A stretch of 64,000 nt of DNA from Clitopilus passeckerianus (Eukaryota; Basidiomycota; Agaricomycetes; Agaricales; Entolomataceae), in NCBI GenBank assembly GCA_944990035.1, contig CALYLX010000066.1, positions 1,116,001-1,180,000 on the forward strand, read 5' to 3'. Each line of letters starts with the position of its first letter. The first letter of the stretch is position 1. The notes under the pieces are model-generated. The model searched no databases. It had not been told where the DNA came from and saw only the letters and a program-made list of their open reading frames with translations. The translations under genes were made by a program, and so were the position numbers. Below are positions 14,315-55,376 of the stretch, in pieces.

Positions 14315-14464
14315 AAGATTGGGATAACCCGACTTTCGTTGTAGAATGCATATGGTCGTGTACGGAAATCTGTAATTAAATGGACATTAAAGTTCGACGA
14401 GAAACTATGAGAAAACGTTTGAGTGCAGAGAGTATTCGGTATGCCGAGCTTTCATCTCAATGCC

Positions 14465-19790: not shown

Positions 19791-20554
19791 AGTGCTCAAA
19801 GATCGCCGTTCGAAAGAACGTTTGATTTCGTCCAGTGACAATATCGGCTGAAAATGACTCGTGAGCGCCGCATATAGGCACGATTCCTAAGCACATACCT
19901 AATTGGATTCGATTGCGGCTTGATAGGAGAACTATCATCGTGGCAGGAAGAATGTAACGGGGTTGAAGAACCCGTGATCCCCTTAGAGGCCGAGAATCCA
20001 TGGAAAGACCATCGCTGGGAGTTACGTATCCGTAGATTGGCGCTGTCTCCTAACTGATTCCCTCACGTTGTGCGGTAGCTGATTTACGACGTTGTCCTGT
20101 ATGTCGACTGTATGCACATTGGCATGCACGAGTAAAAGAGGCAGGAGACAAAATCCATATGCTGAAACTTTCCCACGGTTCGGCTCTGATCGGTCCGTTC
20201 AATGTTGAACAGATATTTGATCATGAACGGGATTGGACAGTTGAACTTTCAATGTTCAGTGGGATGTAAGGCTGTCAAAATCTACCAATATACATGCAAT
20301 AAAAGACTGCGCCGTTGGGGAGTCTCGACGCGAGTGAAGCTGCCTTGAACCATTAATTACAACCCATGAAATTTCCAATTACAATATTCGTGTAGAGAAA
20401 CAGTACGGAGGGTAGGAAAACATGTGGCAATTTCAAGATCATCTACTCATCGCGAATGAATAAGCCTTTTTTCTACTACACATTGTTTTGTATCTGAATT
20501 CTGACCGTGCTCAAGCATATCCTAACCCCCGCATGATATGCACGAAGGCTAACT
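19791..20554. other. Intergenic between divergent RBR copy 3 and F-box copy 2
   Basis: No gene seen. It contains the perfect inverted repeat GTTCAA-TG-TTGAAC near 20200 and related GTTCA-type half-sites in the following 60 bp. These could be regulatory, but nothing else supports that. Confidence 0.4.
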
Positions 20555-22735
20555 ATGCGGTTTGGAATGGACCATTCGTCAGATACCCACCGTTTGCCAA
20601 ACGAGCTTGGCTCAACAGCTGGGCGTGATCGATCGATCAACTATAAGCGGAGACGGAAGCACCCAAACTTAGTTCGATTCCTCGCCGTTTGTCACCTTGG
20701 TTCAACCCCGATGAGTAGTATCCTCGACGACCACTTCGATATGCAGAAAAGTGACGGCACAAGCCTCGTGTTCGACTATCTTATTCAGACGCTTGCTCCC
20801 CCTCGCCCAGGGGCGAATATATTCGATCGACAGGGACTCCTTGCTATATCACTATACTTGAACTCGAGTGCCTTGCATAAGTACTCACAGATTCACCTTG
20901 TCATTCTAAGAGGCACTGATGACAGCTCCCTCGGCAACCTAGTGAGCTTCAAGTTTATTCTGAGCTGTTAGCATACCTTAACTCAATTGAATCTCCACTA
21001 CAGGTGATCACGGAGAGTAGGTATCCACAGTCGCGACCCAAAGACGATCAACCTATCGTGTCATACAGGACCGTCCTGTCGCGCTGTAGACGCCGCCGAC
21101 CTACCCCAACGGATGCGCTCACAGTACCCTTCTCTGTCACCGAATTGTGGATTAATACTATGAACTATAAACCGCTCACATCCAGGCAAATATTGTCCGG
21201 GAAATGGACGTTGCCTTCGATCGCACATATCCTATTGACCCCTCCACTCACAGCACCCTGATCTACCTGGAATCCTCGATCCGCGCCAATGTACCGTTGA
21301 ACAACAATCTGACTTACTCTGCTGCCTTCCTGTGCACTTACAGAGCTGTCACAAACCCACGATCTAGATCTATCTCTAATCCAGGGCTGCGATTTTCCAC
21401 TCGGATCCTCCGAGAGATTGTCACTTGGTTGAGGAGCGACAACTCCATTGGCGAAAAGATCTAATGGTACTCGGATTGACTTGCAAAGCATGGGCGAATG
21501 TTCTAGATTGGTTTTTCCAAATCCACTGCGAGACGTGCCCCGAGAAGTATTTTCCTAACACCCAAATCAGGCGCGAACACCAGGATCGCCCCACACTCAC
21601 ACAGAAAGTGCATTCCTTGCAGCATTGGCGCCAGGATAGAGCCCTACTAGTGCGTCAGTTCGCCATCACCAATTATTGTGACTGCGATAGATCGAGTCTA
21701 CAAAACGATCCTCTAACCCTTTACACTTCGATCACATCCCTTCTGCGACTAGCAAGCTTGCTCAGAGTGCTATGGATACCTCATTCCCTAGGAATCTTTG
21801 ATCATCAAGGAATCCTTGAAGCAATCGGGGGTCTCAGAGAAGTCGAAGTATTTCAAGTTGTGGAACTTACAGAATATTATGGATTACTGCCAAAGACGTA
21901 CTATGTCCGTCTGCACAATGTCTTAAGTTCTATTAGCCAGTGGGTGGAACTGACCAAGTTCGAGTGGCATGGGCAAAGGTACGTGACGTGTGATACGTCT
22001 CATAGACCGACAGCCGCTAAAGCGGTTCAACAGGATATATGAGCGGTACGATAGTCAAAGGTACGGTGACACCCTTACACTGGCATCCCAGGTCACGACA
22101 GTGTGCTAAATACATTGAGAATGACGTCAGATATCTCCCTTAGTTTTCTGCAGGCTACAGCAAGCCTTCAGTCTGGAGAAACTTTCTCTCAACACCGAGT
22201 TCTTGGCAAGCAAACAATTTCTTTCCTTCTTCGACGTCCCAACCCCTAGGCTGAAGCACCTCACCCTTGAGAGTGTACACGGAATTGCCAACAAGGACCT
22301 TCAGTCTGCCCTAGTAGTGGCCTCTTCCACCCTTGCGAAAATCGATTTCAAGAAATGTAGATTTTTGAAAGAGCCAGGAGAAACGCACGCCTTGGATGCC
22401 GCAATACACCTCCTGAATGCATTGGAATCCATCGAGATCGACAGTTGGAATGCCAGTTGGCTCTTAATTGCGAAAAAGCAAAAGCAATTCACCTTACAAC
22501 CTCCGCGGTTGATGATCAAACAGATTTCGGATCCAACTTCTTTAGAAAAATCCCAGATGCGCTTCGGGCATCTGAGGGGGCATGGAGAGGGTTAGGGATG
22601 ATGAGCCGCCTACCCGACACTGAGTTGGCCGAGAACAGTGCTCAGATGCAAAATATAGGTTCCAGGGTGAAGGAAATTCGATCTGTTGCCATGAAGCTTG
22701 GTATAGAGTTCGGAATGGACTCGATGGAGTGGTAA
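20555..22735 (+). pseudogene. F-box-like protein, frameshifted copy 2
   Basis: The full length aligns with the copy at 49.3-51.4 kb: SSALHKYSQIHLVILRGTDD, SYRTVLSR, AFDRTYPIDPSTHSTLIYLE, the F-box-like stretch (ILREIV...HWRKDLMVLGLTCKAWANVL), YYVRLHNVLSSISQWVEL, then LRR-type exons ending EIRSVAMKLGIEFG. Three 1-nt frame breaks are visible with no intron to explain them: near 21205 (GGGAAATGGACG), near 21428 (ACTTGGTTGAGG) and at an A5 run near 22545. Introns at 20950-21003 and after about 21977 look normal. F-box proteins are substrate receptors of SCF ubiquitin ligases; this copy can give only fragments unless the shifts are assembly errors. Confidence 0.75.
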
Positions 22736-23042
22736 AGGAAGAACTTACAAACCAGGGGGCTTACTGAAGGTGATGACCCAAAGTAGAGAAGCGACTACAC
22801 CAAGACGATCACGCAGACCAAGGGTGGCCACCTTCACTCCGTAGTTACGAAGCGAGTCACGAAAGCTATAAGAATGCACTGCTGAGAGCTCGATATGCAG
22901 GCCTTTGAAAATGATTAATGAGCTCCCGGAGGTTGTGTTTCTGCGATAAGAACGCAAATGTTCGCGGTGACGTATGTATGCTCGGATGGTTTTGAACAAG
23001 TGCAGATTTTTCTACGTAAGCGATTACATTTACTATTGTCGA
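22736..23042. other. Short gap between convergent genes
   Basis: Lies between the 3' ends of F-box copy 2 (plus) and RBR copy 4 (minus). A minus-strand open frame at 22745-22999 has no match. No repeat seen. Confidence 0.4.
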
Positions 23043-24919
23043 TCAACACGTACATGTCTTCCACTTAGCCCCACATAAATAACAAAACTCCAATGTACAA
23101 CGACAGACCATATGATGACACCCTCCTGTTGTTTCCACATATGTCTTGCAATGAGGGCACAGCTGCCATTTCTTCGTCTCCGCAAGATGTTTCAAAGCAT
23201 GGGCGCCCGTACTGTTGTCACAAGTTTCTTCCGGATGAGCGTACTGTTTGCATTTGGGGCAAACTAGCGTTCCGCACGTTGAACATTTTATGTCGGCAGC
23301 GCTTCTTTCTGATGACCCAAGGAAAGCTGAACAAGTCGGAACAGGACAGAAGACACGGAAGCTGGCTGGTACTGCGTATTCGACCTGCTTCTGAGTCAAC
23401 GTCGATTCAAGTTTTCGTGTAAGGAATGGGCTAAGGGTATCGGCTGGAATTGCTTGGTTGCAACATTTCGGTGGGAACAGAGATTCGTCCGTCGTAGCCG
23501 TGTTGACGTTATCCTGGACACAATCGACACAATGGTCGTGTCCGCAGGGTGCTTTGAGTGTCGGCTCTCCCACAACAAGATCTCCGCAGACAAAGCATAA
23601 TATTGTCGGAAACCCATTCTGAACGCCGTGCAATGTGACGGGATCGGCAGGGCTTTGTGGCCGACTGGCCGCTGGGCTGAAGTCTGGGGTGTCGTTGCTG
23701 ATTGAAGGCATAGCAGACAGGCTGCTGAGTGGACTGGGTGAGGCCATGGTAGGCGACATCTGCAAGCTTGCTGCTGGGCTGGGAATAAGCGATCCGCTTC
23801 GGGTTGGGGTCGAATGGGTAGGACTATGGATAACAGGGGTAGTAAAGGCCCTGGAGTGAGAACTAGGACTAAGTGGTATTGGGAGGGACCCCGATTGTGG
23901 GCTCGGTGGGTCGATAGCTTGGTTGAAATTGAATGCGGAGCTGCTGAACAGATCCCATGGAAGCATCGGTGGTTCACTGGGGCTGTAGGGTAGCTACTTA
24001 GCCGCATATATGCGCCCAACTAAGCCTCGACTGACCTCTTTAGTATCTTGATATTCTCATCTGTGATCATATTGTCTTGGCGGTTCGTAAGAAGAGGTAC
24101 GGGATGTTGAGAAGGATTTCTGTGTTATCAGAGAGTAAGTCCACGTCTTGCAGGCAGAACAAGCGACGCTTACTGAATTCTGAAATTGACTACTTGATCT
24201 TCGTTTCGTGGCTTCTCGGCAAATGGGTTATCTGCCTGCACACTGGAGGGACCAGGTCGGCCGACATTGATGTCATATCGAAGGTTCGCTCGTCTGCTTT
24301 CTGCAGGTGCATAATCCCACACAATCAAATCTTCTGGCTCATCCAGGGTGGTTGTATCCTGAGCATCTTCTTCCTCAATCAGAGGAAAGCTATTACGCGC
24401 TTTAACGTTGTCGTTGACCCTGTCGTACCCGTTAGAATCAAGAACATTCCCTTCTGAGCTATGAACGAGAACTAACCTCTGACGATCGTCAAAGTCGTTG
24501 CTGGTACCAGGTTTTGGTGCATCGGCATTAAAGGAGCATGCAGGCAGTCCAGCTTTGATAGCGAAAGCCAGACTGGCTCTGCTGCGAGCGAAATCCCCTG
24601 CATGGCAAGCAAAGGGGTCTGAATCCAGGTTGCTTGCATAGTTGAAGTCTTCCATCGTGTCCAATGCATCTTGCAGGAACTCTAACTGAAGCCTGACCGC
24701 CATTTCTTCGTCATCGAGCATTTCTGCGTCTGGATCCTGCCGGCGCTTTCCCTTGAGTTGATCATTGTTCAGGATGTCGGTGAGTGATCGTTCGGCGTTG
24801 ACAAGCGAGGCAGCGTTTTCAGCATCATCTGCGAAGACAGTGCGCTTGCCAACTACAACAGAGGAAGTTGCAGTAGCCATGGTATCAAAAGAAGATGAAC
24901 GGCGTCCGAGACTGGCCAT
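23043..24919 (-). CDS. RBR E3 ubiquitin ligase, copy 4, ends just after RING2
   Basis: An N-terminal exon (from ATG 24919, MASLGRRSSSFDTMATATSS) with an acidic helix-rich region (DDEEMAVRLQLEFLQDALDT) ends near 24170. Small exon(s) follow, then a long exon from about 23975. The long exon has a Ser/Pro-rich linker, RING1 (CFVCGDLVVGEPTLKAPCGH...CVDC, PPKCCNQAI), an IBR (CSTCGTLVCPKCKQYAHPEETC) and RING2 (CPHCKTYVETTGGCHHMVC...FCYLCG...CTC), with the expected catalytic Cys in GGC. It stops right after CTC, whereas copies 1 and 3 continue about 100 residues to a Cys-rich tail. It is clearly more distant from copies 1-3 than they are from each other. The exons between 23975 and 24170 are not resolved. 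It shares a 340-bp upstream region with SPC25. Confidence 0.75.
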
Positions 24920-25258
24920 TATCGGGAATCTGGCTTCCCCTTGACCAAAATGAGCGGTTGGCACATGATCATGACATGGGCGCCTATTGCCTCGTGGTGT
25001 TCATTTGAAGCAGGTGGCGGGCCTTCGAGGTTTCTTCGTAGAAAGTAGTAGTATGGAAGGCCTCAAATAGTATAAACTTGGTGCTAGACGTCGCACTTGA
25101 CGATGAGCAGTCCTCGGAACGTGCTCCCGCCGGAGATCGGATTGAGAACCAGAAAGCTTTCGCCAAGCAGGAACAAACATAGACACGCTACCACGTGACA
25201 CGATTCTGAACACGTCTGGAACGGTCAACGCGACTTGACACCTTGACCAACGACCACC
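24920..25258. promoter_or_regulatory. Shared upstream region of RBR copy 4 and SPC25
   Basis: The two genes diverge from this 339-bp stretch, so both promoters must lie in or near it. This is inferred from gene order only; no factor site was identified. Confidence 0.5.
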
Positions 25259-26152
25259 ATGGCGCCAGTACATCGTGTACCACAGATCCAACTTGCGGCC
25301 ATATTAGCCCAGCAAAATCCCCAGATTGATCTTAAACTTGAAGCATACGAGTCATCAACACGAAATTTTCTTAAGGCTGTTACAAATTACAAGAATCGAG
25401 CAATAGCAACGATAACGGAACGACGAGCGAGCCAGGAGAACGAGAAGAAGAGGATGCAGGAAAAGAGCCAGGCATTTGAGACGGAAACAAATCAATGCAA
25501 GCTAAAGGAGATAGATCTGGTGGAAAGTAGGTTGTATGGTTGACTCGAACTTTGCTAGAGCTCATACTCTTTAGCGCTGGAAAGGGAGAAAGAGGAGCGA
25601 AAAGATGCTGAACTTTCAGTTGCTGCTCTCAAACGACAGTTCGCATCTCAGAAGGATAAATGCTCGACTATTGAGGCCGAGATAGAAGAATACCGAGCAA
25701 TAACGGCCAACCTTCGTCGAGGTGTGTTGTTCGGTACACCTTAGTTATTCTACTGACTTACTGCTGGACCAGAGCGAGACAAGGAGCGAACAACACTCAG
25801 TGCTCATGCCCTACAACTATCTCCGGAGCTTCAAAACTGCGAAAATTATCTATCCTGCGTCATTGAAGGTATGGGAAAGGGACGATTGCTCATACGATTT
25901 CTTGAACTGGATAAATCCGACATCGAGAAAGAGTTCAGCTTCGTGATCGACGTCTCTGGGACAACCTATAAAGGTATTCATTAGCGAATCCTTGTGTGAT
26001 CCCCGGAACTAACTTGTGTGGTAGTTGTCACATCCTCCCCACCGCTCAATTCATTGTCGCTTCTGGTGGAAAATTTGAATGACACAAAGGATATTTTTGC
26101 CTTTATCAGGCAGATGCGGGAAGCATTCCACACCCAATCCGGCCTTTCATGA
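25259..26152 (+). CDS. SPC25: Kinetochore protein Spc25 (Ndc80 complex)
   Basis: Four exons (25259-25526, 25575-25721, 25773-25973, 26025-26152) sum to 744 nt, or 247 residues, typical for Spc25. Residues about 20-150 are a charged coiled coil rich in E, K, R and Q. The C-terminal globular part carries the Spc25 pattern: ENYLSCVIEGMGKGRLLIRF, then DKSDIEKEFSFVIDVSG and a final helix. Spc25 pairs with Spc24 at the inner end of the Ndc80 complex, anchoring microtubule-binding Ndc80/Nuf2 to the kinetochore. All splice junctions keep phase 1 and no break is seen. The start is the first ATG in a good context (CCACCATGG). Confidence 0.9.
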
Positions 26153-26933
26153 GGCCACTATTTATCTCAGTAAAATATCTATAACATGTATTTTAGGGCA
26201 AACTTTTTAATATGTACACCATGGACTACCCTGAAACGATGGTTATGGGTAGCTATAAACCCATTCAATGTCAAACATCTTCTAGATGATGGATTTCAAA
26301 GGCGAATTCCTCCTATACGCCTCGAGGTACGAGAAGTCCCCATGATCTGGAACTTTTCAATTGATGAGTTCGTTGAAGAGAGGCCGTGTACTAAGGCTCT
26401 GACCAAACCACAGTCTGGAATATCGTAGAGCTATACTCTTAGATGCGTTGAATTGTGTGTTGTTTGTAGTTTTAGATGGACGACTTCAATCAGGGACCAA
26501 ACAGTTGATTGTCGATTGGATCATTGACACTGACCAGATGTCGCCTGCATGAGAGCGCACCGACTCAGGGTTTCCGATTGTTAATCCACCGTATGCCCCC
26601 GTCTGGACCTGCCACATGATACTGCCAGGATAACAAGTCTACAGTGATTTGCATAATGTTTTACAATCGGTTTTCGCAGAAATGTCGTTGACAGCTGTAA
26701 TTTCATCAGGACGGAGGGCGACCACGATCCTTTAAAGGTAAATCACCTCCATCAAGTGGCAAGTCTGAGAGATGACTACCTGATATGGGCGAGGGATGTG
26801 CTTCAGGCAGTAATTCACCAGTTAAATAGATTGAATAGCGAGAGAGGGAGGTAATATGCGTAAAAGTACATGTTGTAGAGTTCTAGGCCTGTCCTATCAA
26901 TGTATCGAAAGAAATATGTTTTCAGGGAAAAAG
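26153..26933. other. Intergenic after SPC25
   Basis: No gene seen; only short open frames. Contains the SPC25 3' flank. Confidence 0.5.
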
Positions 26934-27015
26934 AAAAAAAAGAGTTCAAGCTAGGATTCGAACTGTCGACCCCTTCCTCTTGTAGTTCACGCGTTACCAC
27001 TGAGCCACCTGGCCG
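26934..27015 (-). tRNA. tRNA-like pol III element or tRNA pseudogene
   Basis: On the minus strand an A-box match TGGCTCAGTGG (26997-27007) is followed at normal spacing by a B-box match AGTTCGAATCC (26954-26964) and then a T8 run (26934-26941), a pol III terminator. This is the layout of a tRNA gene. But the cloverleaf folds poorly: about 5 of 7 acceptor pairs, a mismatched D stem, almost no T-stem pairing, and no good anticodon loop. It is best read as a decayed tRNA or the head of a tRNA-derived SINE. I assign no amino acid. Confidence 0.4.
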
Positions 27016-27910
27016 AGCTCGGAACCAACAAGTAATATCCATGATTTGTCAGAGCTTACACCACTCAAAGAGGAAATGCTGGCTCCGCCGAACAACAGAG
27101 CCTCTACCCATCGACGAAAACAGGCATTTGCGGCCGAACTTCTTGCTAATATGATGACGGCTGACAGCTGTCAAAAAGGTTTCTTCGAAGGCGATTGTAA
27201 AACATTAAGCAAAACACTGTAATAGCAACCACGACAAAGGCTCCTCAGAGGTGAAAATATCACCATTTGTGCACCCAAAGAAGAGTGAGCCGTTTCGAAA
27301 TCAGCGGAGAAAGGGGAAAGAGATTCACCATACGACAAGGCGATTTTTGTATTACAGCACCCCTGCCAAGTGCTCGGAGGGTAAGCCTGAGCGTACTTCA
27401 AGCGTACCCGTTGGTTATACGAGGTGAGCATTGGACCTCTCCTTCGTATTAACATGTTACGGTAAATTTTCAGATGCGCCTACGTCTAACCTTGTTGTCT
27501 ATTAAATTTCTGTGCACGCAGACAAAATCCCCAACAGCAAGTGCTAAGTATTTTTGGTGCCTGTGATGATCGCCGTGATCACCGTTCCCACAAAAAATGT
27601 TGATCACCAAGTGACTCTGTTCCTGCCAACGACACCCATTTGGCCTGAGCGCTGAGCTCCTTTGGGAGGGCAAACGGGGAAGCCGCTGACGTCTTTTGGC
27701 CTCAAGTCTTACCTGACTGTGGCTAGCATGTAGATCCCTGTAAGATCCCTCAGGGTAGTGGGGTTCAAACATTCAACAGTTGGTCCAGACTCCAGACTAA
27801 ATTGAGGGACCGTGTTGAGAGCATAAAACCTGGACCGTCGCAATCGTTCGCCAATTCCTCATGTTCCCTCTCGTCCTCAATCTTCCACCCCTCCATCTCA
27901 CCCCCAGTCG
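27016..27910. other. Intergenic upstream of the DUF6534-type gene
   Basis: No gene recognised. Frames at 27171-27772 (minus) are short and unmatched. The last about 150 bp should hold the promoter of the gene starting at 27911. Confidence 0.45.
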
Positions 27911-29488
27911 ATGACAGAGTATCACTGGGATCTAGGTATCCCGATTCCTATGATCGTTCTAGCTACCGATGCTAACTCGAAGCCACTTGATATTGACAGG
28001 CACTTTCTTCATTGGTGCAACCTGTATGTCTCATCACATTGTAAACAGCTGATAGATTCAAATGTTATTCAAGTCAACACATTTCTTTTTGGCCATGTTG
28101 CTGCTCAATACGTTCGTTATTACTCTGCAAGTACGTGTTTCGCCTACTCCGGTTGAAGGCCATAAACAAATGTTTGGGCAGACTTCAACGATGCTGTCTG
28201 GGTTCGGTAAATGCTGAGCCCCTTCGAACGTGAAATGACTTTGCTAACGAGCCTGAAGTGCCACGGTGCATGCCTTGCTTGCCATCGACATAACTCATTC
28301 TGCAATGTGAGCCGGATGGGAATCATTCAGTCAAGCATTGACATATGCGAACTCTGCTACAACAACAATCTAGTATAATCTATATTGTTTGGTTCTATAT
28401 GTGAGTCAGCGGCAAGAGCGCATCGCATCTCGCCGCGGCTAACTCGACGTCTAGTGTCGATAACTTCAATAATCCAGCCAGTCTTCAAGGTGAAAGAGCT
28501 TCAGGTTGATATCTCTCGCCTTCATTAAGGTTTCTCATTTAGTCAACGTCTGGGCATATCTTGTTACACCGTTGATGGAGACACTCTCATCCGTCCTTGT
28601 ACAATTGTTTCTTGCCCGCCGGTAAGGAATTTCCCTACCTCGTTATCAATCAGTCTTCCTTGACCATCTGCAGACTTTTCAGTTTGAACAGACGAAGGAG
28701 CACCTATGCCATCCTTTCAGGGTTGATTTCACTGAATCTCGTCCTTGGCCTATTCGCAGGAGTACAGTACGTTCTTCCATGACTGACTGCCTCTTATATC
28801 CGTTGAATAATCAATATTATACAGGTCTATTGCGACGAGTCCGACGTATGTCAAACACAAATTTCTACGCCGATGTCAGATGGATAATCCTAGGACAGGT
28901 GGAAAACACTGATCTTGCACACCCGACGACTTTACGTTGCATGGATGCTTCTCCAATCTGTAATTGACATTTTTCTTTCCGGTATGCCTCTATTCACTCC
29001 CTTTGTGGTTCCATACTTACCCTTGTAAACTTCAGCATCCCTGGCTTACGAATTCCGTTCTCATCGTACCGGCTCAAGGACCGACTATATCCTCTCGCTC
29101 CTTATGAGGAAAGCTATCCAAACAGGGCTCTTCGCAACCATCCTCGTTATCTCTTCCGCCTTCGCCATGCGTGAGCCGTTTCGCCTGTTTGATTCACTTG
29201 ACACAGCTCACATAGCCTCACTCCCCACCAGTATTCGTCAGTAAAAGGACGGGTCACCTATCTGGGATGTTCATTCTGCCGGTCGGGCGGGTTTATACGA
29301 ACGTTTGTGTTTTTTTCATTACTGGCCCTTTGTACGAACTGCTCTTCTAACCTTTCTATTTCTAGACTCTGATGGACACCCTTCTTATGAGAACCAACTT
29401 CAAAGCGATATTTTCAGAGCCAGAGAACCTAACGGAGATCGTCTCTCGGGACTTGCAGAATCTGGGGTATGAGAACCAGTCAACGTAG
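27911..29488 (+). CDS. DUF6534-type multi-pass membrane protein
   Basis: A chain of short exons from ATG 27911 (MTEYHWDLGTFFIGAT) to TAG 29486-29488 matches the order of the agaricomycete DUF6534 family: NTFLFGHVAAQYVRYYS, ANFNDAVWVR, ATVHALLAIDITHSA, YLVTPLMETLSSVLVQLFLA then RRLFSLNRRRSTYA, LYVAWMLLQSVIDIFLSASL, RTGSRTDYILSLLMRKAIQT, and the tail TLMDTLLMRTNFKAIF. These hydrophobic blocks suggest about seven membrane helices. Function in the family is unknown. The region 28310-28540, which should hold one or two exons, is not resolved and contains stops in each frame tried, so the gene may be damaged there. Total length is therefore not given. Confidence 0.6.
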
Positions 29489-29830
29489 AGAAATGGGTCA
29501 CAATTTGTACCTAGGGCTCGAAATTAGTATTTGTCATGTAGAAAACCGTCCAATTTTGCTCTCTTGAGTTGAAGGATGTTGATCAGATGAACAAGAAATG
29601 AGACAGTTTTCCCTGGCCACGCAGGACTTACCGCTGTGCTTGTATACGTTGTAGGACGCAATCATGCGAAAGTTACTGGTCGTTGGGTGAAGTATTTTGG
29701 ACTTAGCTCATCGTAAAGGACCGCAACACTGGTAATAAACGTCTGTACATAGATTGAAGGTCGATCGAGTAGTAAACCACATATCATTCAGAAAACAGAA
29801 GGTTCAAGAGTGATATGGTGGCCCATAAGA
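29489..29830. other. Gap between convergent genes
   Basis: 3' flanks of the DUF6534-type gene (plus) and RBR copy 5 (minus). Nothing recognised. Confidence 0.45.
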
Positions 29831-31330
29831 CTAAAACGGTGGCATGCCTGGGGGTAAGACGGGAGGGCGAAAATGTGTGGAATGAGGTACCCAAGGATGC
29901 GTAGGAAAAGAAGTAGGAAGGCGTCCACTGGCAGGTGGTATAGGTGGGAAATCTGTACTGAATCTTCTCTCATCATAGGGATCACCATAGTACTGGTATA
30001 TGTGAACGTTCCCAGGAGGAGGACGATGATGAGGGTCAGGCAGAGGAAATTGAGTATGGGTGAATTGAACCTGCCCTGCGACCGGGGCATGGGTTGAATC
30101 GGGTTGTGGTGGTGGAGGAGGAATGATAGGAATCGATCGCTGATGTGACTGTCGCTCCGTAGGTGGCCTGCCAGCGTCAGGTGCCCTATTTTCGTAATTT
30201 GCTGGACGCCCATGGTTTCCCGAAGGTGATATGTAATTATTCTCGACTTGACGCCGGAGTTCTTGATCACGTCCTTGATCACGAAGCATAGCTTGAGTCT
30301 GGTTCCGGTGTTGATTAGCGCTTTGCATCGATGGGTAGATTGATCTCGGTTGGTCCGTCGCAACGGCAGAGGAAGGTTGAGGAGGGGGAGGGGGAAGAGG
30401 AAAAGGTGGGGCTGACGACACCGTAGGAGCGACATTTGCAGGGTGTTCGTTAGGGAGAGGTGGGAGGTTGCTGGAGGGCGGAAGGATTAGAGGTAGCTCC
30501 CCATTGCACTGATGGTCACGACCGGATACCGGGATCGTGGAACAATCGAAGCAAAATCGTGAATGGCGATTACCAGAACAAGCGACTTGTGTCCCTTCCC
30601 GAGGCTGTCCAACAGGCTTTGCGCACTGCGGGCATGGTTTCCATATGAATCCGTCCATTCGTTGGCTATTTTCCATTCGACTCCTTTCGTTAGAGGTTCG
30701 AAGGGGGTGTTCCGTATGCCGACACTGCCTGCAAAAGAGAAGCTTTGCATTTTGGGCAGGAAAGAGGCGGTGCGAAAGCCAGAGGTGAGTCATCGGCGCA
30801 GATAAAGCAGCACAAGATGCAGACCAATTTCGACAGTAGAGCCTCCGAATGCCGAGGGGTTGTTAGTTCTGCCCGTCGTTCCCGATACTGGTGGAGTTCA
30901 GGCTCACGAAGAAGCGACTCGATGGACGACTCGGATATAAGGCGATCGCAGCGCCGCAGAAGGAACGTCCATTCATTTAGCCTCAACTTAGAAGAGAGGT
31001 AAGTGGAACAGAGGATGTGGTTGCAAGATGCTATAAGATATCCCGCAGTACAAACTAATTTACATGTCGAGCATTCTCGATACGTAGGCAGTGCAAGAGT
31101 AAGGTTCAATGGATCGTTGCGGGGATAATCAACAGAGATGTGTTTAGGGCACCACTGGGAAGTTCGTAAGCTGGTATTGGGATGGGGCAGGATGTTGTGA
31201 GGACTGCTCTGCGACGTGGAGGCCCTCTGAGACGTGTCTTCAGCAGGAGCATGGCTAACGTCCGTGGGGTTTCTACCAACTTTATCACGACGAGTCTCTG
31301 TATCCAAGGCTTCTAGATTCCTTTGCACAT
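29831..31330 (-). pseudogene. Degenerate RBR-type ligase, copy 5, proline-rich tail
   Basis: The 5' part (about 31330-30730) reads through a worn RING1 (ECSTC, then ASCNHILCSTYLSSKL, FLLRRCDRLISESSIESLL) to SCPKCKASL. The frame then shifts by one at an A4 run (30733-30736). The second frame continues the IBR (CRQCRHTEHPLRTSNERSRM) and a RING2-like segment (CPQCAKPV, FCFDC), then about 230 residues of Pro-rich, low-complexity sequence with PPPPP runs. Removing one base restores the spacing C-x2-C-x4-C-x2-C-x4-H seen in copies 1 and 3. RING2 lacks the GC-x-H-x2-C catalytic pattern, so even a repaired protein should not be a normal RBR ligase. The 5' end has no clear ATG. It could instead be a divergent gene with an unrecognised intron. 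Confidence 0.5.
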
Positions 31331-36751: not shown

Positions 36752-36760
36752 ATGTAGGCC
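36752..36760. repeat. Target-site duplication, left copy (ATGTAGGCC)
   Basis: These 9 bp are repeated exactly at 43669-43677, directly outside the two inverted repeats. A 9-bp duplication is the hallmark length of Mutator-superfamily insertion. Confidence 0.9.
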
Positions 36761-36783
36761 GGGCTACATGATTTTTGCGTGCA
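36761..36783 (+). repeat. Left terminal inverted repeat
   Basis: Pairs with 43646-43668 in inverted orientation with two mismatches (positions 5 and 8). The inner 15 bp TGATTTTTGCGTGCA are identical. Confidence 0.9.
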
Positions 36784-36829
36784 AAGAGCGTGCATGCCCG
36801 CATGGCTGCACGCTCAAACCCGCAAAAAT
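36771..36829. repeat. Foldback hairpin at the left transposon end
   Basis: Outer arms ATTTTTGCG (36771-36779) and CGCAAAAAT (36821-36829) are perfectly complementary. Inner arms GAGCGTGCA (36786-36794) and TGCACGCTC (36807-36815) are too, around a 12-nt loop. The left end thus contains part of its own inverted repeat twice. Confidence 0.85.
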
Positions 36830-37344
36830 GTCGGAGTTTGAAATGACTTTGCGTCGAGTTCTGGAGTCAGATCGAGAGGTAACGAGGAGGTGGGGTGCGT
36901 CAAAACGTCAAATAGATTAGTAGGCCTTTGATGGCTGTAATTTAGAATACCACATTTGTGACTCTGTCCACAGTCTTAAAATAATTGTTGGCGAAGTCGT
37001 ATGAAGGGGATTGATTCTTGGAGTGACCAACCGACTATGACAGCAGTGGAGGCCGGTGCGCCTGTCATTAAGCCTTCAAACTCCCTCTACATACTTTGTT
37101 GGTCCTTTTCCACGGCTGATGAGAAAATCTAGACCATACCAGCCTAATTGACATATCCAGAACCCTCCGAATGGCCGTTTATACCCAGCTGTCATCCCAA
37201 ATCACGATTGTACAGCCACCAGAGGGACCAAGTTGATCTGCTTCATTGCCAGTCGCCCTCACGTTTACTGCGTTCATGTTTACTGCTTTCGATGACTCTG
37301 CTAAGGTTAACGGGCTAACATGGCTGCCATATGGCTCTGCTTGG

Positions 37345-37488
37345 TGCACGCTTGGTGCACGCTTCTGCACTCATGCACGCAAAATCATGCACGCATGTGC
37401 ACGCATTCACCAGAATATGCACGCTTGACGCACGCTTGGCTTCCAAAACGCTGGCATTCATGCACGCTCGTTGAATCTTCCTGCACGC
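37345..37488. repeat. Left subterminal array of TGCACGC
   Basis: Eight copies of TGCACGC, all in the same orientation, within 144 bp, plus near matches (GACGCACGC). The heptamer is also part of the terminal repeat. Likely transposase-binding sites. Confidence 0.85.
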
Positions 37489-37684
37489 TGGTACTGTTTT
37501 GGCTATACTAGGTCTACTCTGGAACAACTTTGATGCATGGCTTTGAACTGTATATCCGCTCTTACTCTTTTTGGTAATGTGATCGGGATGCCATTCGGTA
37601 TTGCTCTTTGGTGATCGTAAAATATTCTACACCCTTTCTACGCTGTACTTATCACTTCTATAATCATTATATGTCTCTTTTAAT

Positions 37685-40600
37685 ATGATCTGGGTGAGTG
37701 ACTCTGCTTATTGAGTTCGATCCCTCGAAGGAACTTACCAACATCTTGATCGCCAGAAAACGATTAAGAAGTTCCTGTGGTCCAAACGTCGAAGGAAATC
37801 GAAGCGGAGAGGCAATACAGGTGCCCTGGAGTTTGTAGACGGAGATCAGGATCTTGAAGTTCATTTCCGGGTTAGCGGTGCGTCGTCCCTTTCACGTATA
37901 TGGATTGTCCTCTCACTATTTGAAAAGGTGGGGAATTGGCAGTTGCCGGTTATTATCCAAAATCACCTCCAGAATCGTCCACCATAACGGTCCCACCAAA
38001 GAGCGCACTGAGGGCAAAATTTGACAACCAAAGAACGTCTAAATGTATGCCCTATCAATTCTATTCGGCTCTTCAGAGCTGACTCTCTGCTGACCGTTCA
38101 AGTGTCCCGGCAAGAAGCAAAAGAAGTTGTAGTCCGCGAAGCCAAATCACTCTCTAATACAACAGGAAGCTCTAACGTCACAGTCACAACCTGGGATGGA
38201 TTTCCGGACGGAAAATTCAAGATTGACTTCACTCACGAAGAGGCTGAGCGGGCAGGCGGTCCAATGATACACTGGGCTACCAAGGGCAGTTCCGGATACC
38301 GAAACGCCCCAGAAACGGCTAGATTCAGCGAGCGTGGGTGGGAGAATGGCTACAAGAGAGTCAAAAGATGCTTGGGACTCATCGGATGCAAGAAGTGCAC
38401 AAGGCTCACTCGGTCAGCCACCTCGGAGGCAGCTCAGCAGGCAAGACTGCTTGCCAAGTGTCCATGTAAAGGTCCTCGCTTTCATGTTGCCTGTAACGTG
38501 AAGATCACCATATGGGAATGGGCAGGTGGATTTCATATTGAGGGATCTGGTCCCCATTCACATATGAGGCCGCCGCAACACCTCCATACAATTCCTGAAG
38601 AAGATGAAGAATTTGACGAGCTAGTCTCGTCAAATCCAAAAGTCGGTCCCTATGGCCTAATGGTTGGAGTTCCTCAACCAGGGAAGGAGCCCAAATCCGT
38701 CAAGAACATTTCTCCAGTCTATCATAACGTCGATAGGGTTGCACGGGATCGTCGAAACTCGCGCAGGAAGCATAAGGTCGTTGACGAGCGTACATTTGTC
38801 GATGCCCTCGGTGAACTGCAACGGAAACGACCTGGCTTCGTCAAGAAATGTGTCATCAACGCCGATGTCACGGTTATTTCAGTACAATCAGACTTCATGC
38901 TCAGCCAACTCACCAAGGAAGATGTCCTTGACGATCCAGTCAATGGAACGGTGAATGACGCAGCCATGGGCTTCTGTAAGAACGCAAAAGATCTTCTTAT
39001 GATCACGTCAACGTTTGCTCCGAGTCTCCAGCACTGGATCCCTGGCGTCATCTCCTACATGAATGGCGCTACTGCAGAGCATTTCAAGCATCATTTTCTC
39101 GTTCTTTTTGAAACTGTTGCAGAGGAGGTGTCGAGGCAGGGTAGGCAAGTCTGAGACGAGCTTTTTATTGGGGTTTGTTTCTTTTATGATTTCTTTATTG
39201 AATTGAGGACTAATCATAAGCAAAGGTCATGGATTTCAGCGATGCTGAGCGGTCTGGTTTCATCCTTGCATTCAAGAGGTTCTGGAAAGATCGCCGGGAT
39301 AATACACGTTCAGATGAAGAACTCGAAGCGGCCGCTCAGCCTCTTCTTCGGGGATGTCAAGAACACTTCAGAGCGTCGATCACCCGTATTTGCAGACTGG
39401 GGCCAGTTGCAGCCACCGGAAAGGTAGAAGACCTCCGAACCCGGGCTCTCGGGCTATTGAAACTCAAAACAACGGAAGAGTTTCGGTCACATGCGCTGGA
39501 TCTTGCTGCAGACTATCCAATGATACAAGATTGGATCTCGTGGTGGCTCAGAGAGGCTCACGCAGCTATGCTCTTCGAATCCGAGCGCAAGATGCTTCCT
39601 GCAATCTGGGACTCTATCCCTTCGACAACAAATGCTCAGGAAGCTATGCATTTCAAGTTATACCAAGGCATTGGCAAGAAACTCGGCATTATCGAAGCCT
39701 TAGAAAGGATTGGAGATGCGGCTGACGAAATGAAGTCCACATTTGAAGCCGAAGAAGGTACGCCTAACTGTCAGATCACTCGATATTTGAATGTCATTCT
39801 AATCGTTTTAATCATTGATCATGCAGCGGGAATTCCAGTCCGGTATGGTACGGCAGCTTTCATTCGACGAAAGCGTACGGCAGACATTATTGGACGCACA
39901 AAGCCAAGCCGTGAACCATCAAAAAAGCGAAAGAGAGATGATACTCAACGACCTCCTGATACTCTTGACGAGTTAGGGATGAATAAATCTCAGTCACTCC
40001 TTAAGACGGTTGGAGATTCAAAGCAGCAGGTTCTCAACTTCCAACCGACGAAAAAGGCCGAGAAGATTCTCTGGGTCAGCTATTCTTGGAATCACAACTC
40101 GTGCTACCTGGACACCGCCCTCGAACTCATCTATTGGGCAGTGTATCGCAATGCGGAGGCGTTTACTATTGCCTTCGGAGATGCAAAGGAGGACAGTGGT
40201 CACAAGGAGCTCTATGTAGCCATGCGAGCTCGCTGGTCGCTTCAACAGAAGATGGAGCCTCAAGACTTCAATACTACTCGGGATTCTGTACGAAGTGCGC
40301 TCTACAAGAAGAAAATAATTCCTGGGGAATTCGGTCAGCCACAGCCTGCTTGGGTGAGTCAATTCAAAGAGATACATCTTTATATATTGAGCACGAAATG
40401 ATAGTCCTGGCTATGGGATTCCTTTCATCCCCAGCTAAATCCTGGGGTGTCCAAACGTGCCTCCATATTCTTTCGTGCTACCTACCTCAATGTCCACCAC
40501 TGCGCTGGTTCGCAAATCACAAAGGGACCTCACATGGAGATTGTAGCCCCTCAGGACCGTCCGTTCTTTCGCCTGACCCGCACAGAGAATGTCCGGTTCA

Positions 40601-43343
40601 AGGGTAAGGTTTCCACCTGGTTTCAGTCAAAAATGTCACTTCCCAACGGCTATTCTCCAACAAATCGGCCTTGTTGGAGGGTCAACGCTGATGCTCAGCC
40701 TGCGTATAGCTGTTCGGGAGAGAGGGCCGATCTAGAGAACATTGTCCTCTCGATTCCGGTTGTTCTCATTCTTGAATTCAGTGAAGGCTCAGTCCGGGCC
40801 AAGCGAACATGGTCTTTTCCAAAGACACTGACACCTCTGACGACCAAGCTCACAAAACAAGACAAGATCATCTACGACTTTGTCGGTCTATCACTCTATA
40901 GCGGCCCAGGTGTGGCCCCAGGACCTACGTCTACTTCACCCGAGGAAGAAGAGGTCCCAACAGATTCGGAAGATTCTAGGTCTGTATCTGGCCCTCAAGG
41001 CGGTGTTGGTCACTTCACGGCTCGCATTCTTGGCAAAGATGGGCGATCTGTATTTGACTACAATGACATGGACAAGGGACGAGCAGTCAGGGATATTAAG
41101 GCGACCCCACAATCACACCTCTATTCAAAGTATCCACCACTCCCTACTCGAAACACCCGTGTCTGGTCGGCTGTATACACACTTCGAGGTGGCATTACCG
41201 CTCAAAATGAATTCTTTAGAGTTCGATCAGAGGAGCTGAAGAAGACCTTCAATATATCGGTGACGACAAATGATCTCGACGACTCACCAGGTGTACTCTA
41301 TACAGGAAGTGATTTCATACCGATGGAACCTTCTGACCGCGAGTGGTTGAGTGAGAGCAGGCGTATCTCCTCTCTAAACCGGGAATACAATGCCTCACCC
41401 AACCCCCCTCCTGTGAAGTCAAATAAACGCCGCCCTCTTGCCAAAATCAAACAAGCACACGAGGAACTCGGGCCTGAGTCGGAAGAGGAGGATGAGCCTG
41501 CCACGAAGCGTCAAAAATTGGACATCGACATACCTTCATCAGTGTTACCCGCCCAGAATCTCATCGCTGAAGCCCTCCCTGGCGCCGCATCATCACCTCC
41601 CCTGTTGTCCTCCCCCCAAAAGACAATATCCCCGTTCCCTTTGTCCCCACTTCCCAAACCTGGCAGGCCAACTACCAATGCAGAACGGGCCAGATCACCA
41701 TCGAGTTCATCCATGACGACTGATTTGGGTGACGGGCCTGAATGGTACTGTCGGTGTGGCAAGAGGGGGCGTCGGGATCCGTCATACCGTTCAAAAGAGG
41801 AAGGCGAGGCAATCCAATGCCAAACCTTGGATAGGGGAAGACCTGGCTGTCAGAACTGGTCGCATAAGGCATGTCAAAGCGATGGTCTTGCTGACATACC
41901 TGAGCCTAGATTCCGATGTGACTGGTGCACTCGGAGACTTCTACCTGCAATAGAGCCGCTAGACTCTGAGATGAGCCAGACCGCTAGAAAACGACGGGAT
42001 AGTTCAAGACGACAGTAAGTGAATGGAATAACTATTGCAGGCGGCGGACCACTTACCATTGAACACAGGCGGAACAAGGCCGAGATGATGCTCGGTAAGC
42101 CCCTGAAATCACGACTACGGTATGTTTGCAATTCAGTCAATCAAATTTGAGATATCTTGACATTACATACCAGGGCTGGCATTGGCGGCCTCGTGAGACT
42201 GGAAGAGTACTGGTACCCAGTACGAATCATTCATGTACACCGCAACACGGACATGTGCACAGTCCGATGGTGGCGAGGGTGCCAATTTCACGAAAGGGTC
42301 GCCACCGCTGTTCCTGGGTCCGTCAGTGAAGTGTCACTCAATGATGTCGTTGACTGCCTCTGGGGTGATCGATATGCAAGACGGGAAATACGGGTGTGTA
42401 AACTCTTGATCAACGGGTAAACATTGGGACTTACCATGTTTTCTTTGTAGCTTGGTCAGTTCACCGATTCTGTTGCCCCAGAGAATCAGCAAGACTATCT
42501 TCTCGAACATTTTGAGCATGCTCCTTACACAGATGACGTGAATGCAGCCCTGACGCCAGCCCTTCCTACTTTACGGCAACTTCTGGACCTCATGGTGAAC
42601 AACGAAGCGCCGCTGCCAGATCAATCCCGAGTTCCAGCACTGGAATATGTCACCAATACGAAGAAAAACATTCAGTTTGAGCACGTACCATTCCCTGGAG
42701 ATCTCAGCATTTTGGAAAGGGCCCGTATCAGCAATTGGTTTGAGCAGCATGTTGCCCAAGATCGCAACTTGCGGCGGAAATGGGTTACTTCAGTTCCGAT
42801 GGGGCATGCGATCACAGCCTTCATTTCGTATCGGTTATTGGCGGGGAAAGGGGAAAACAAGGAGTTCTCCGCTCACCTGACCTCCGAGAGTCTGGACACG
42901 GCTTGGGAGCAGCAGGTAGCGATGACGAGTCGACAGGTGAATGGTGTCGATGTGGACTCCGAGTGCCAAGCCATACTTGAAGAGCGGATGTTCGAAGTCT
43001 CCCATTGGGCAGGAGTTGCCGGTCATTACCAGTGGGGTCTTGATGCAGGAGATCATCAAGATAACTGGGATCCATACGAGGGTAAAGCAAAGTACAATGA
43101 TGGTTCACGTGAAGGAAGCGACAAGGAATTGTTGGTACGTAATTAGAAGGTAAAATTAACCTGAACGAAGCAACTAATACTCACGCCTGTCAGCTGGGAC
43201 GCAATTACGTCTACCTCAACCCGCCGAGCGCAGAAGCGTCCAATACGGCACCAAGAGAAACCCAGGAGCAAGGGTCTAGGCCTCCTCGACAACGGCCCAA
43301 AGCTCGAATTATCAAGCCCAGGGTTGAACTTGAAGCCCCTTAA
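37685..43343 (+). CDS. MULE transposase: GCM zinc finger + RNase H core + USP-like protease + PHD finger
   Basis: Eleven exons (37685-37693, 37757-37877, 37928-38044, 38103-39140, 39221-39757, 39827-40353, 40405-42014, 42069-42119, 42174-42393, 42451-43134, 43194-43343) sum to 5,064 nt, or 1,687 residues, with no break. Order of domains: a GCM/WRKY-type zinc finger at about 159-240 (CKKC, KCPCKGPRFHVAC, GPHSH); a RNase H-like transposase at about 335-580 with candidate acidic residues in VNDAAMGF, VMDFSDAERSGF and the end block WDSIPSTTNAQEAMH; a USP (C19)-like cysteine protease at about 690-1005 with a Cys box NHNSCYLDTALEL and a His box GHFTARI...FDYNDMD; a PHD-like finger at about 1230-1293 (WYCRC, HKAC, RCDWC); and a C-terminal region beginning with a Tudor/chromo-like stretch (YWYPVRIIHV, CTVRWWRG). 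The first 9-nt exon is the weakest part of the model. Gene order and terminal repeats make it the element's own gene. Confidence 0.85.
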
Positions 43344-43538
43344 AAGTATATAATTCTCGTCGATGCGGCTTCACAGCCACCTAGTAACCAAGATTTCAAA
43401 GTCGTGATATATTGTAAGAATTGTTTTGCATTTACTACACGAGGTACTATACATTGGGGATGTTCTACATCTGAATTGAAGAGTATTGAACGCAAATAAA
43501 TTATAAAACTTAATGTATCAGCTTGACGACTGGATTGC

Positions 43539-43652
43539 TGCACGCCTACACCTTGTTGATGCACGCTCACAATGTTCTGATGCAAGCGTGCACGCGCGAG
43601 TTGCCGTCAGTCTGCACGCTCACAATATACTATGCCCGCTGGTGATGCACGC
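43539..43652. repeat. Right subterminal array of TGCACGC
   Basis: Five TGCACGC copies in the same direction as the left array, plus one reverse copy inside the palindrome GCGTGCACGC. The last copy is the start of the right terminal repeat. Confidence 0.85.
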
Positions 43653-43668
43653 AAAAATCACGTCGCCC
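43646..43668 (-). repeat. Right terminal inverted repeat
   Basis: Reverse complement of 36761-36783 with two mismatches. It ends GTCGCCC, directly followed by the 9-bp duplication. Confidence 0.9.
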
Positions 43669-43677
43669 ATGTAGGCC
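43669..43677. repeat. Target-site duplication, right copy (ATGTAGGCC)
   Basis: Identical to 36752-36760. No mismatch suggests the insertion is young or the site is little changed. Confidence 0.9.
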
Positions 43678-52488: not shown

Positions 52489-55376
52489 ATGGCATATCAC
52501 CAGGTTACAGCGACGTCGTTGACTCCATCGCGACCTGCACCACAGGCACCCCAGAGACGCCCCTCTGATAGCCCGCAACAGACATTCATCACAAATCAAG
52601 CACTAGCTAATTCGGGTTACAACTCCTCGTTCACGTTTTCGCCATCATCTCCTTCGGCTTCATCTTACACACCAATGTACTCGGGAATTGGAGGAACGCC
52701 TCTGCCAAACCGAAGTATTGACTCTGGCAGCTCACCGATCGTGCGGTATGGCCCAGTGAATATCAAGGAGGAAGGCACGTTCGCTAGCTGGATGTGGAAA
52801 CTCAAATGGCTCGTGTTGAAGGAGGAGACACTCAGCATTCACAAATCGGAGGTACGTTCCTGTCACTTTGATAGCGAAGACGTGGGCTAATCGCTGCCTT
52901 ACAGCATTCCCCACAACAAACCATTATCTACCTGCGAGACATCTCCAACATCGAACGGACAGATCTTAAGCCCTACTGTCTTTTGCTCGAGGCCAAGGAT
53001 AAGCGGTGGCATCTCTCCCTGAAGAATGACGAGGAACTTTACGGGTGGCAAGATGATATATATTCCAGAAGCCCGTTAATGGGCGTTAGTAATCCGACGA
53101 ATTTCGTCCACAAGGTCCATGTTGGTTTTGACCCAGTTTCTGGTGCCTTCACGGTGCGTGTCGTTGTCCTCTGACATGGCGGGCTATAGTCTGACCTGTC
53201 ACGTAGGGAATGCCGGATGCATGGGCAAAACTTTTGACAAAATCTGCAATTACACGGGAGGACTATGCAAAGGATCCACAAGCCGTTCTTGACGTTTTGG
53301 AGTTCTACACGGACCACCAAAAGCGAGAGATGGAAGACATGGGTACGATTAGCTGTCCTTCTCCAACTCATTCCACAAAGGCTAATTCTATGCAAACAGG
53401 TGCTCCTGCAAGATTCAACGCAGGAACAGGACTTGGCGGTATGGCCAAGCTGGGCGGTGCACTCCCAACACCATCAGCCTCGTCATCCACACTAGTGTCT
53501 TCACGGCCGTTACCCAAACGGCAAGAAAGCTCCCCACCAGGTCTCTCCTCCGACAGTGATGATCTCGCATCTGCCGCGGCTGCCGCTGCCGAACTCGTTA
53601 ACGGCTCCCATGCTGCCCACACCGCATCAAACGCTGCTGGAGGTGTGGTTGGCCCACGGCCACCAGCATCAGCAGCCGGTGGTTTACCGTCTGCTTCTCG
53701 TCCGGCGCCTGCCCGGCCATTGCATGCTGGACGACCGGCACCTGCACCACCCTCAGGAGCTTCATCTGGTGCTTCCACCCCAAAGAACGAGAGGGATCAT
53801 TTACCTTCCACTGCCGATCTAAGCGCGAGGAAACCCGCTACGGGGCCCTCCTCGGGGTTGCCACCTGCCAGGAAGGAGTCGTTGCCTGAGAAACAGCAGA
53901 GGGAGCAGCAGCAGAGGCAGTTGCCGTCTACGAGGGATGAGAGGGAGAGGCAGGAGAGAGAACAGATGAGGAAGGAGTCGCCGCAGGTGCAGGCGCCGAC
54001 ACTTGGGTTGCAGACTTCGGGCTCTGCGTCACGGGGAGAATTGCCTCGCCCGCCTATTGGAGCTCCTGCGAAGTCGTCGCCTGCTGTGACTAATGCTGCT
54101 ACGCAGCCTGTTTCTGGTGCTGCTGGAGCTACTGCTGGCCCGCCGCCTGTGAAGCCGCTACAGCCGAAGAAGATCCAGATACAGGAACAGGAGAAGGAGA
54201 AGAAGGCTGCTGGTGGGGGAGTTGCTGCTGCGGCTGCTGCGTTGGAGAAGCCGAAGGAGAAGAGGATAAGCACTATGACGGAGGTGCAGATTATGGAGAA
54301 GTTGAGGCAGGTTGTTAGCGATGATGACCCCAAGCAGATTTATAGCAAGATTAAGAAAGTTGGTCAAGGGTGAGATTTCTCCTCGATCTTGTGTGATGGC
54401 GAGGGCTGACATGGCAATTGCAGAGCTTCTGGACACGTTTATGTTGCGAAGACTCTGGCGACTGGGAAGAAGGTTGCAATTAAGGAGATGGACCTCTCAC
54501 ACCAGCCCAGGAAGGAGCTCATCGTCAATGAGATCCTGGTCATGAAGGAGTCTCAGCATCCGAACATTGTCAACTTCTTGGAATCGTACCTGGTCAAGAA
54601 CAATGAGCTTTGGGTCGTCATGGAGTACATGGAGGGCGGTGCTTTGACGGATATCATCGAGAACAACACGCTTGAGGAGGATCAGATCGCTAGCATTTCC
54701 TTAGAGGTATCACACACCATAACCTACACGTGGAATTCTTCTGACTGCGATTTCTAGACTTGCAAGGGTCTTGGTCACCTCCACAGTCAGAGCATTATCC
54801 ATCGAGATATCAAATCAGACAACGTTCTCCTGGATGCACAAGGCCGAGTCAAAATCAGTGCGTTATCTCCTCTTCTCCATCTAGCTCCTAGACTAACAAT
54901 GTCCTTTTCAGCTGATTTCGGTTTCTGCGCCAAGCTCACTGACCAAAAGTCCAAGCGAGCGACGATGGTCGGAACACCCTACTGGATGGCTCCTGAAGTC
55001 GTCAAGCAGAAGGAGTACGGCGCCAAAGTCGATATCTGGTCGCTTGGTATCATGGCGATCGAAATGATCGAAAACGAGCCACCGTATCTGGATGAGGAGC
55101 CATTGAAGGCGCTTTACCTGATCGCTACCAATGGAACGCCTACCCTCAAGAAGCCTGAGGCTCTGAGTAAGGAGCTGAAGGGATTCTTGGCTGTATGTCT
55201 CTGCGTGGATGTCAGCAGTCGAGCAACTGCGAAGGAGCTGTTAGAGGTACGACGGTTTGTTCGATGCTTTTATGGGCAATTTCTCATTCTATCTTTAGCA
55301 TGAATTCTTGAAAAAGTCTTGTGCCCTCTCTGGACTTGCGCCTCTCCTACGATTTAGGAACAGGCAAGCCTCATGA
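52489..55376 (+). CDS. CLA4: PAK-family serine/threonine kinase Cla4 (PH-CRIB-kinase)
   Basis: Eight exons (52489-52851, 52905-53153, 53207-53342, 53400-54369, 54424-54706, 54758-54857, 54912-55246, 55299-55376) sum to 2,514 nt, or 837 residues. Domains: a PH domain at about 90-190 ([18 protein letters not shown]); a CRIB motif near 195-215 ([15 protein letters not shown]) for Cdc42/Rac binding; a long Ala/Pro/Gln-rich linker; and a kinase domain at about 565-820 with [12 protein letters not shown] and the activation loop [16 protein letters not shown]. All catalytic motifs are present. PH plus CRIB plus kinase is the Cla4 arrangement (Ste20 lacks the PH domain). Cla4 acts under Cdc42 at the membrane in septin assembly and polar growth. 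The first ATG in frame is at 52489; the upstream codons are not ATG. Confidence 0.95.

Follow-up and report, generated by a model that had tools for sequence, protein, structure and literature searches.

The closest described relatives of the transposon presented here are the MuDRF elements, a branch of MuDR described in 2011 in which a GCM domain and a DDE transposase domain lie in one protein and insertion creates 9-bp target-site duplications; their hosts are Puccinia, Melampsora, Laccaria, Schizophyllum, Coprinopsis and Naegleria (PMC3164196). In the main text of that description the words protease, ubiquitin and PHD occur 0 times each. The element that we report from the basidiomycete Clitopilus passeckerianus lies in a stretch of 64,000 nucleotides (hereafter the window; contig CALYLX010000066.1, positions 1,116,001 to 1,180,000, assembly GCA_944990035.1, 64.8 Mb in size). 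It is a complete transposon of 6,908 bp (window positions 36761-43668) that was inserted as one unit and contains the gene for a predicted transposase of 1,687 residues. The N-terminal half of this protein, with its GCM domain and DDE core, corresponds to what is already published; the new part is the C-terminal half, in which a domain resembling ubiquitin-specific proteases (USP-like domain) is followed by a PHD finger.

Here and below, statements on published systems refer to the accessible parts of the sources. Ginger1 transposons and Ulp1-carrying Mutator elements also fuse a transposase to a ubiquitin-type cysteine protease, some of them with a PHD finger, but the protease is Ulp1 or OTU (Ulp1 together with PHD in Ginger1-9_HM) rather than USP-like, and no GCM or Tudor-like domain is mentioned in those parts (PMC2836005). 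The Trichomonas vaginalis protein XP_001314237.1 comes closer in its protease, since a transposase domain is fused to a peptidase C19 of the USP family; that domain is however transposase_11 and not MuDR, and GCM, PHD and Tudor-like domains go unmentioned in the same parts (PMC2836005). Among Mutator-like elements (MULEs), the cnidarian MuDR-6_HM (OTU) and the SET-domain MULEs of Phytophthora carry ubiquitin- or chromatin-directed enzymes, although of other families and in other hosts (PMC6446971). Deubiquitinases are likewise encoded by Helitrons, as tegument-like (VTD) or OTU enzymes which the authors propose to shield transposition proteins from degradation; yet Helitrons are rolling-circle elements, and their proteases differ in family and active-site order (PMC9741609). 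A MuDR or fungal MULE transposase with both a USP-like domain and a PHD finger was not found in the literature searched, which included few subscription papers. An earlier sequence-only reading of this DNA had called the architecture non-standard; this stands for the combination of USP-like domain and PHD finger, but not for the remainder, as both GCM-bearing MuDR transposases (MuDRF) and transposases with Ulp1, OTU, PHD or C19 domains have been published.

A complete transposon and its gene

The interval highlighted by the sequence-only reading (37685-43343) is the gene only, and the element that moves is larger. Perfect 9-bp duplications flank the window copy and two further copies, L009 (GTTGCTGCA) and L016 (TATGTCATA); L-numbers denote loci of the same genome, and C-numbers its contigs. 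L009 is a second copy, 99.55% identical to the window element over 6,905 aligned bases, and its exons contain no stop and no indel (checked on the exons of a 1,677-residue model, a variant with an alternative intron 6 acceptor and ten residues fewer, which is used below where stated). L016 is a 2,759-bp internal-deletion derivative that retains element positions 1-1580 and 5746-6908. On contig C69 both flanks are matched (81% and 92%) and the element is not there, which identifies an empty allele; the target has diverged in this contig, where the duplication aligns with a 4-bp gap. Because an allele-like contig lacks the element, the assembly is probably heterokaryotic. When relatives were scanned for duplications, L012 had one of 9 bp, L013 one of 8 or 10 bp and L025 a possible one of 9 bp, and none was found at L023, L024 and L026. 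The features of the window copy are as follows.

36752-36760, no strand: target-site duplication, left copy, 9 bp (ATGTAGGCC), from the sequence and the diverged empty allele on C69
36761-36783, plus strand: left terminal inverted repeat (GGGCTACATGATTTTTGCGTGCA), with the same ends in copies L009 and L016
36777-37488, no strand: left subterminal array of 11 TGCACGC sites (2 of them in reverse) to which the GCM domain may bind
37685-43343, plus strand: transposase gene with 11 exons, predicted to encode 1,687 residues once the introns (GT...AG, 50-80 nt) are spliced out
38174-38599, plus strand: GCM DNA-binding domain, residues 107-248, from a profile match to 1odh
38795-39735, plus strand: RNase-H-type DDE core in exons 4-5 (D368, D433, C474-x2-H477, E569), from conservation
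40087-41247, plus strand: USP-like domain, residues 695-1064 (Cys700, His986, Asn1003/Asp1004), with intron 6 inside, from conservation and profiles
41746-41928, plus strand: PHD finger, residues 1231-1291, in which 7 additional residues separate the third Cys from the fourth in the window copy, from conservation and a profile
42175-42393, plus strand: predicted Tudor-like domain, residues 1338-1410, low confidence, from comparison with the PDB
42547-43083, plus strand: conserved C-terminal domain, residues 1443-1621, with 'AGvAG..QWGLDaGDH...WDP' common to the window protein, L012 and L013
43539-43652, no strand: right subterminal array of 6 TGCACGC sites, 1 of them reversed, from a motif count
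43646-43668, minus strand: right terminal inverted repeat, with the minus-strand sequence GGGCGACGTGATTTTTGCGTGCA
43669-43677, no strand: target-site duplication, right copy, 9 bp (ATGTAGGCC again), read from the sequence

The window contains 20 copies of TGCACGC, both strands counted, and the two ends of the element account for 17 of these, whereas shuffled windows contain 6.47 on average and 15 at most; these arrays are candidate binding sites of the GCM domain. The gene model itself, with its 11 exons and 1,687 residues, was reproduced exactly from the genomic interval. We placed the intron 6 acceptor at the TAG before 40405, because the ten residues that this choice adds (SWLWDS...) are conserved in L012 and appear as SWLYDT in L013, and because L009 and L011 read CCCCGG at the alternative acceptor and thus have no AG there. 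The frame stays open from exon 5 to exon 6 through intron 5 (39220-40401), and the introns near residues 430/431 and 783/784 are also present in L012 and L013. Over the 1,677 codons of the shorter model, window copy and L009 differ by 13 synonymous and 9 nonsynonymous changes, of which 4 and 1, respectively, fall in the USP-like part. The assignment of all domains to one gene with predicted splicing is supported by the order of transposase, Cys box, His box and PHD finger, which is kept on one strand in two subfamilies, and by the recurrence of the introns.

The GCM-type finger proposed for the N-terminal half was borne out: a profile built from six sequences of this genome matched the DNA-binding domain of mouse GCM1 (1odh) with an E-value of 2.5e-12 over 139 positions, the other four matches of the profile being unrelated (E at least 0.2). 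The ligand-type residues C172, C178, C181, C202, C213 and H234 are invariant; the Pfam GCM model gave no match. As to the MULE core, D368, D433, C474/H477 and E569 are invariant in five of five aligned sequences (window, L012, L013, L018 and L024), and these residues and the 9-bp duplication support the claim. Support was lacking, however, from PF10551 (MULE), with two matches in the genome and none at this element, and from hhalign, in which the core compared with the C97 MULE, the one PF10551 element of the genome above cut-off, gave P 0.15, within the range of shuffles. The authors who described MuDRF had to run PSI-BLAST for four rounds before it led to other MuDR transposases (PMC3164196). 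An identity as a KDZ transposon was considered and rejected on the GCM domain and the 9-bp duplication. All three MuDRF features are found here, namely a GCM domain, a DDE core in the same predicted protein and a 9-bp duplication; as these define MuDRF, the N-terminal half is, by its sequence features, already known.

The USP-like domain and the PHD finger

The motifs quoted in the sequence-only reading are all present, i.e. a Cys box (NSCYLDTALEL, Cys700), a His box (GHFTARI, His986), FDYNDM (Asn1003-Asp1004) and a C4HC3-type finger at about residues 1231-1291. The Cys box, the His box and the [ND]D pair are retained in USP order in relatives with as little as 20% identity: NSC[YWF] is found in four of the four sequences covering the Cys box (window, L012, L013 and L024), and H-F and Y-[ND]-D in five of five. 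In an alignment of the window protein with L012, L013 and L014 the His and Asp are invariant, as are the Cys and His residues of the finger, so the quoted motifs are not chance occurrences. Between the two boxes the window family has, in the order seen in USPs, a strand of the IPVVLILE type, then FP and then a YdfVGL strand.

Searched against 177,635 distinct PDB sequences, the profile of the USP-like alignment gave four matches at E<=10, three of which are Ubp6 (0.061, 0.061 and 0.13), and Cys box and His box are collinear in the Ubp6 alignment inspected. The His half was also compared by hhalign with a profile of the genome's own USPs, with 200 column shuffles per alignment. It scored 24.06 over 23 columns with four sequences (one-pair P 0.0016; shuffle maximum 21.11) and 24.45 over 81 columns with five (one-pair P 0.0009; shuffle maximum 15.72). 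As controls against the same host USPs, the reversed four-sequence alignment scored 8.36, and the highest score among ten blocks taken from the core of the element was 17.02. We consider it likely, from these sequence comparisons, that the domain adopts a USP fold, and more probable than not that it is active, in which case it is predicted to cleave ubiquitin.

The PHD-like finger downstream was supported by a PF00628 match in L014 (28.8 bits against a cut-off of 24) and by profile matches to solved PHD fingers, the best being Bye1 (1.7e-7), Set3 (2.3e-4) and MLL5 (6e-4); in L024, PHD_4 matched at 8.3e-6, below its cut-off. The C4HC3 ligands and a Trp are invariant in four of four sequences. 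By sequence the PHD finger is secure in the relatives, and that of the window copy is not recognised by Pfam. It starts about 245 residues after the His box of the same protein. Ubp6 and the PHD fingers of Bye1, Set3 and MLL5 are thus, a repeat artefact aside, the best solved matches of the two parts, but they do not belong to transposases, and the USP match is weak. Further downstream, the leading PDB matches of the exon 9 domain are Tudor domains, all of them weak, and the C-terminal domain (residues 1443-1621) has no Pfam or NCBIfam match.

Relatives, subfamilies and neighbourhood

Exon 4 has at least 17 matches in the genome, and the 17 counted all lie in the window or in the loci examined. 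Besides the window copy, the USP-like part is whole in L009, L012 and L013 and partial in L010, L011 and L014; it is missing from the deletion derivatives L016, L020 and L022, and L021 matches residues 60-301 only. A second subfamily consists of four copies, with L023, L025 and L026 98% identical to L024 over the 384-residue exon of L024 that holds His box and PHD finger. Its core is only 24-27% identical to the window core, and L024 nevertheless presents a Cys box, an HF...YDD box and a PHD finger in the same order as the window protein; the domain order is shared by two deep subfamilies. In the protease half of L024 (4042-4680) there are two Cys pairs (CRGC and CSRC) reminiscent of the zinc-binding fingers of USPs, and these are only partly kept in the window family.

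Other copies record further events. L019 (contig C110) is 99.7% identical to the C100 element (L013) over the 3,096 bases at the left end of that element and ends after residue 607; it is a copy that moved recently and was then truncated or interrupted. The copy on C114, whose 5' portion is L018, is interrupted by a Ty3/gypsy element. L014 and L018 together represent a MuDRF copy split by a retrotransposon of the Ty3/gypsy type, in which open reading frames (ORFs) of protease-RT and integrase-chromodomain-like kind were recognised by eye. In L013 the subterminal array consists of TGCACC/TGCAAC units rather than TGCACGC (about 7200-7010, minus strand), which suggests that subterminal arrays and GCM domains may change together. 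Near the end of the subfamily 2 element, at about 6750-6900 of L024, there are arrays of AAGTAACTT/AAGTTAACTT-like units. Outside this genome, no relatives were detected in a large protein set queried with region 695-1110 and with an exon 7 alignment, nor in viral contigs or in bacterial and archaeal genome contigs (one scan each).

Elsewhere in the window, at 14452-30862 on the minus strand, RING/IBR (RBR-type) ORFs form an array: in four of them an IBR domain exceeds the Pfam cut-off, and a fifth, diverged, has none. An E3-ligase-like family lies near a ubiquitin-related transposon. The window also contains a Vps36-type ESCRT-II gene (6121-7961) and an ORF with a P21-Rho-binding domain (53207-54373).

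Possible functions of the C-terminal half

We consider it fairly probable that this is a MuDRF-type cut-and-paste element whose one 1,687-residue transposase, with GCM, DDE, USP-like, PHD and possibly Tudor-like domains, deubiquitinates the transposase complex. Observed are the element with its ends and duplications, an intact reading frame, and domains that are conserved and keep their order; from these we infer all of the working steps. The GCM domain would bind the TGCACGC arrays near both ends, and the DDE core would excise the element and insert it through cuts staggered by 9 bp. On chromatin with methylated histones, probably H3K4me, the complex would be kept by the PHD finger and the Tudor-like domain, and the USP-like domain would remove ubiquitin locally, most likely from the transposase complex, which would then escape degradation before insertion. 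The transposase complex appears the likeliest substrate because Helitrons and PHD-less Ginger1 families, in the accessible descriptions, also carry deubiquitinase-type domains, and because protection from degradation has been proposed for the Helitron enzymes (PMC9741609).

Several observations weigh against this reading. The self-protection role is a suggestion by analogy. At E<=10 Pfam had no match to the window protein, searched as the 1,677-residue model, and it had none to the exon pieces; NCBIfam gave nothing relevant for the protein. PF00443 (Pfam UCH) has 63 matches in the genome, but none at these loci or in the window protein, and for this reason we label the domain USP-like only. 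The top PDB match of the USP-like profile is a coiled-coil repeat protein (E 0.0069, in several short stretches), which we take as an artefact; the Ubp6 E-values are weak, and the two aligned stretches alone give 360 and 3.9. In the four-sequence comparison with host USPs the His half matches over its 23 columns only, the hhalign probabilities are low (16% and 23%, and 7% with the untrimmed alignment), and with L024 by itself the score is 16.16 and the register is lost. The Cys half alone aligns in register with USP Cys boxes, but its score of 14.4 against shuffles of up to 19.4 is not significant. In three comparisons among young copies of subfamily 2, the His part shows no constraint (nonsynonymous changes 4 to 6, synonymous 0), and the PHD finger of the window copy is interrupted by 7 residues between two metal ligands. 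The claim of a USP-like protease is moderately supported, by the Ubp6 profile match and a His half scoring above 200 of 200 shuffles, but the fold is unproven: AlphaFold2, run on the protease part as a single sequence, gave a pLDDT of 32.8.

The main rival to the transposase complex as substrate is histone H2B. Ubiquitin on H2B and H3K4 methylation occur on the same chromatin, and Bye1, Set3 and MLL5 read H3K4 methylation through their PHD fingers. A USP-like domain active on host chromatin could then be guided by the PHD finger to H3K4-methylated promoters, strip ubiquitin from H2B and so open the target or sustain expression of the new copy. In its favour, a finger with precisely these best solved matches lies about 245 residues past the His box in the same protein, and subfamily 2 has the same domain order; but the residue before the third ligand, Met in Bye1 and Thr in Set3, is Ala in four of four sequences, at a position that presumably lines the reader pocket. 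We regard action on H2B as possible, though rather unlikely. Equally tentative is a broader formulation, in which a MuDRF branch with a chromatin-reading deubiquitinase of its own docks on H3K4-methylated promoters through its PHD and Tudor-like domains and edits ubiquitin, on H2B or on the integration complex, during transposition.

Alternatively, the USP fold may have been kept in a catalytically dead or merely ubiquitin-binding form that serves as a scaffold between transposase core and PHD finger. The great distance of the sequence from USPs, the nonsignificant Cys half and the absence of constraint on the His part among young copies of subfamily 2 would fit this explanation, whereas retention of the catalytic motif positions across the deepest split (NSC in four of four, H and Y-[ND]-D in five of five) makes it unlikely. 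Less probable still is membership in a papain-like family other than USP, in which case the domain would be a cysteine protease whose short motifs resemble those of USPs. This would agree with the missing Pfam UCH match, the low-confidence AlphaFold2 model and profile evidence that is weak in absolute terms. However, the C, the IPVVL-type strand, FP, YdfVGL, GHF and Y[ND]D stand in register with host USPs (81 columns of the five-sequence alignment) and with Ubp6. Ulp1-type enzymes, with a His that precedes the Cys, do not fit either. Tegument-type deubiquitinases have an Asp-x-His arrangement (PMC9741609), which also counts against another papain-like family. A gene-prediction artefact, by which a transposase gene would lie beside a separate host-like protease/PHD gene, is very improbable, for although the one-transcript model is a prediction from sequence, everything lies within one pair of inverted repeats and moves together (L009), the frame between exons 5 and 6 is open through intron 5, and two subfamilies have the same order.

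Should deubiquitination within a chromatin-reading MuDRF transposase prove correct, reader, eraser and transposase would be united in a single protein. To our knowledge, no such protein has been known before. The element may then handle both ubiquitin and chromatin without help from the host, and since both subfamilies carry the USP-like/PHD half, it may belong to MuDRF in general and have gone unnoticed. A role of ubiquitin in transposition has been proposed, and no transposition test of it is described in the accessible parts of the sources (PMC9741609, PMC2836005). With a USP-like enzyme, a histone-reader-like finger and a transposase in one protein, changing one cysteine could test this role in a laboratory host, an experiment made feasible by the near-identical second copy, the short deletion derivative and the empty site. 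That unrelated kinds of transposon have acquired Ulp1, OTU, tegument-type and C19 enzymes suggests that control over ubiquitin is commonly needed in transposition.

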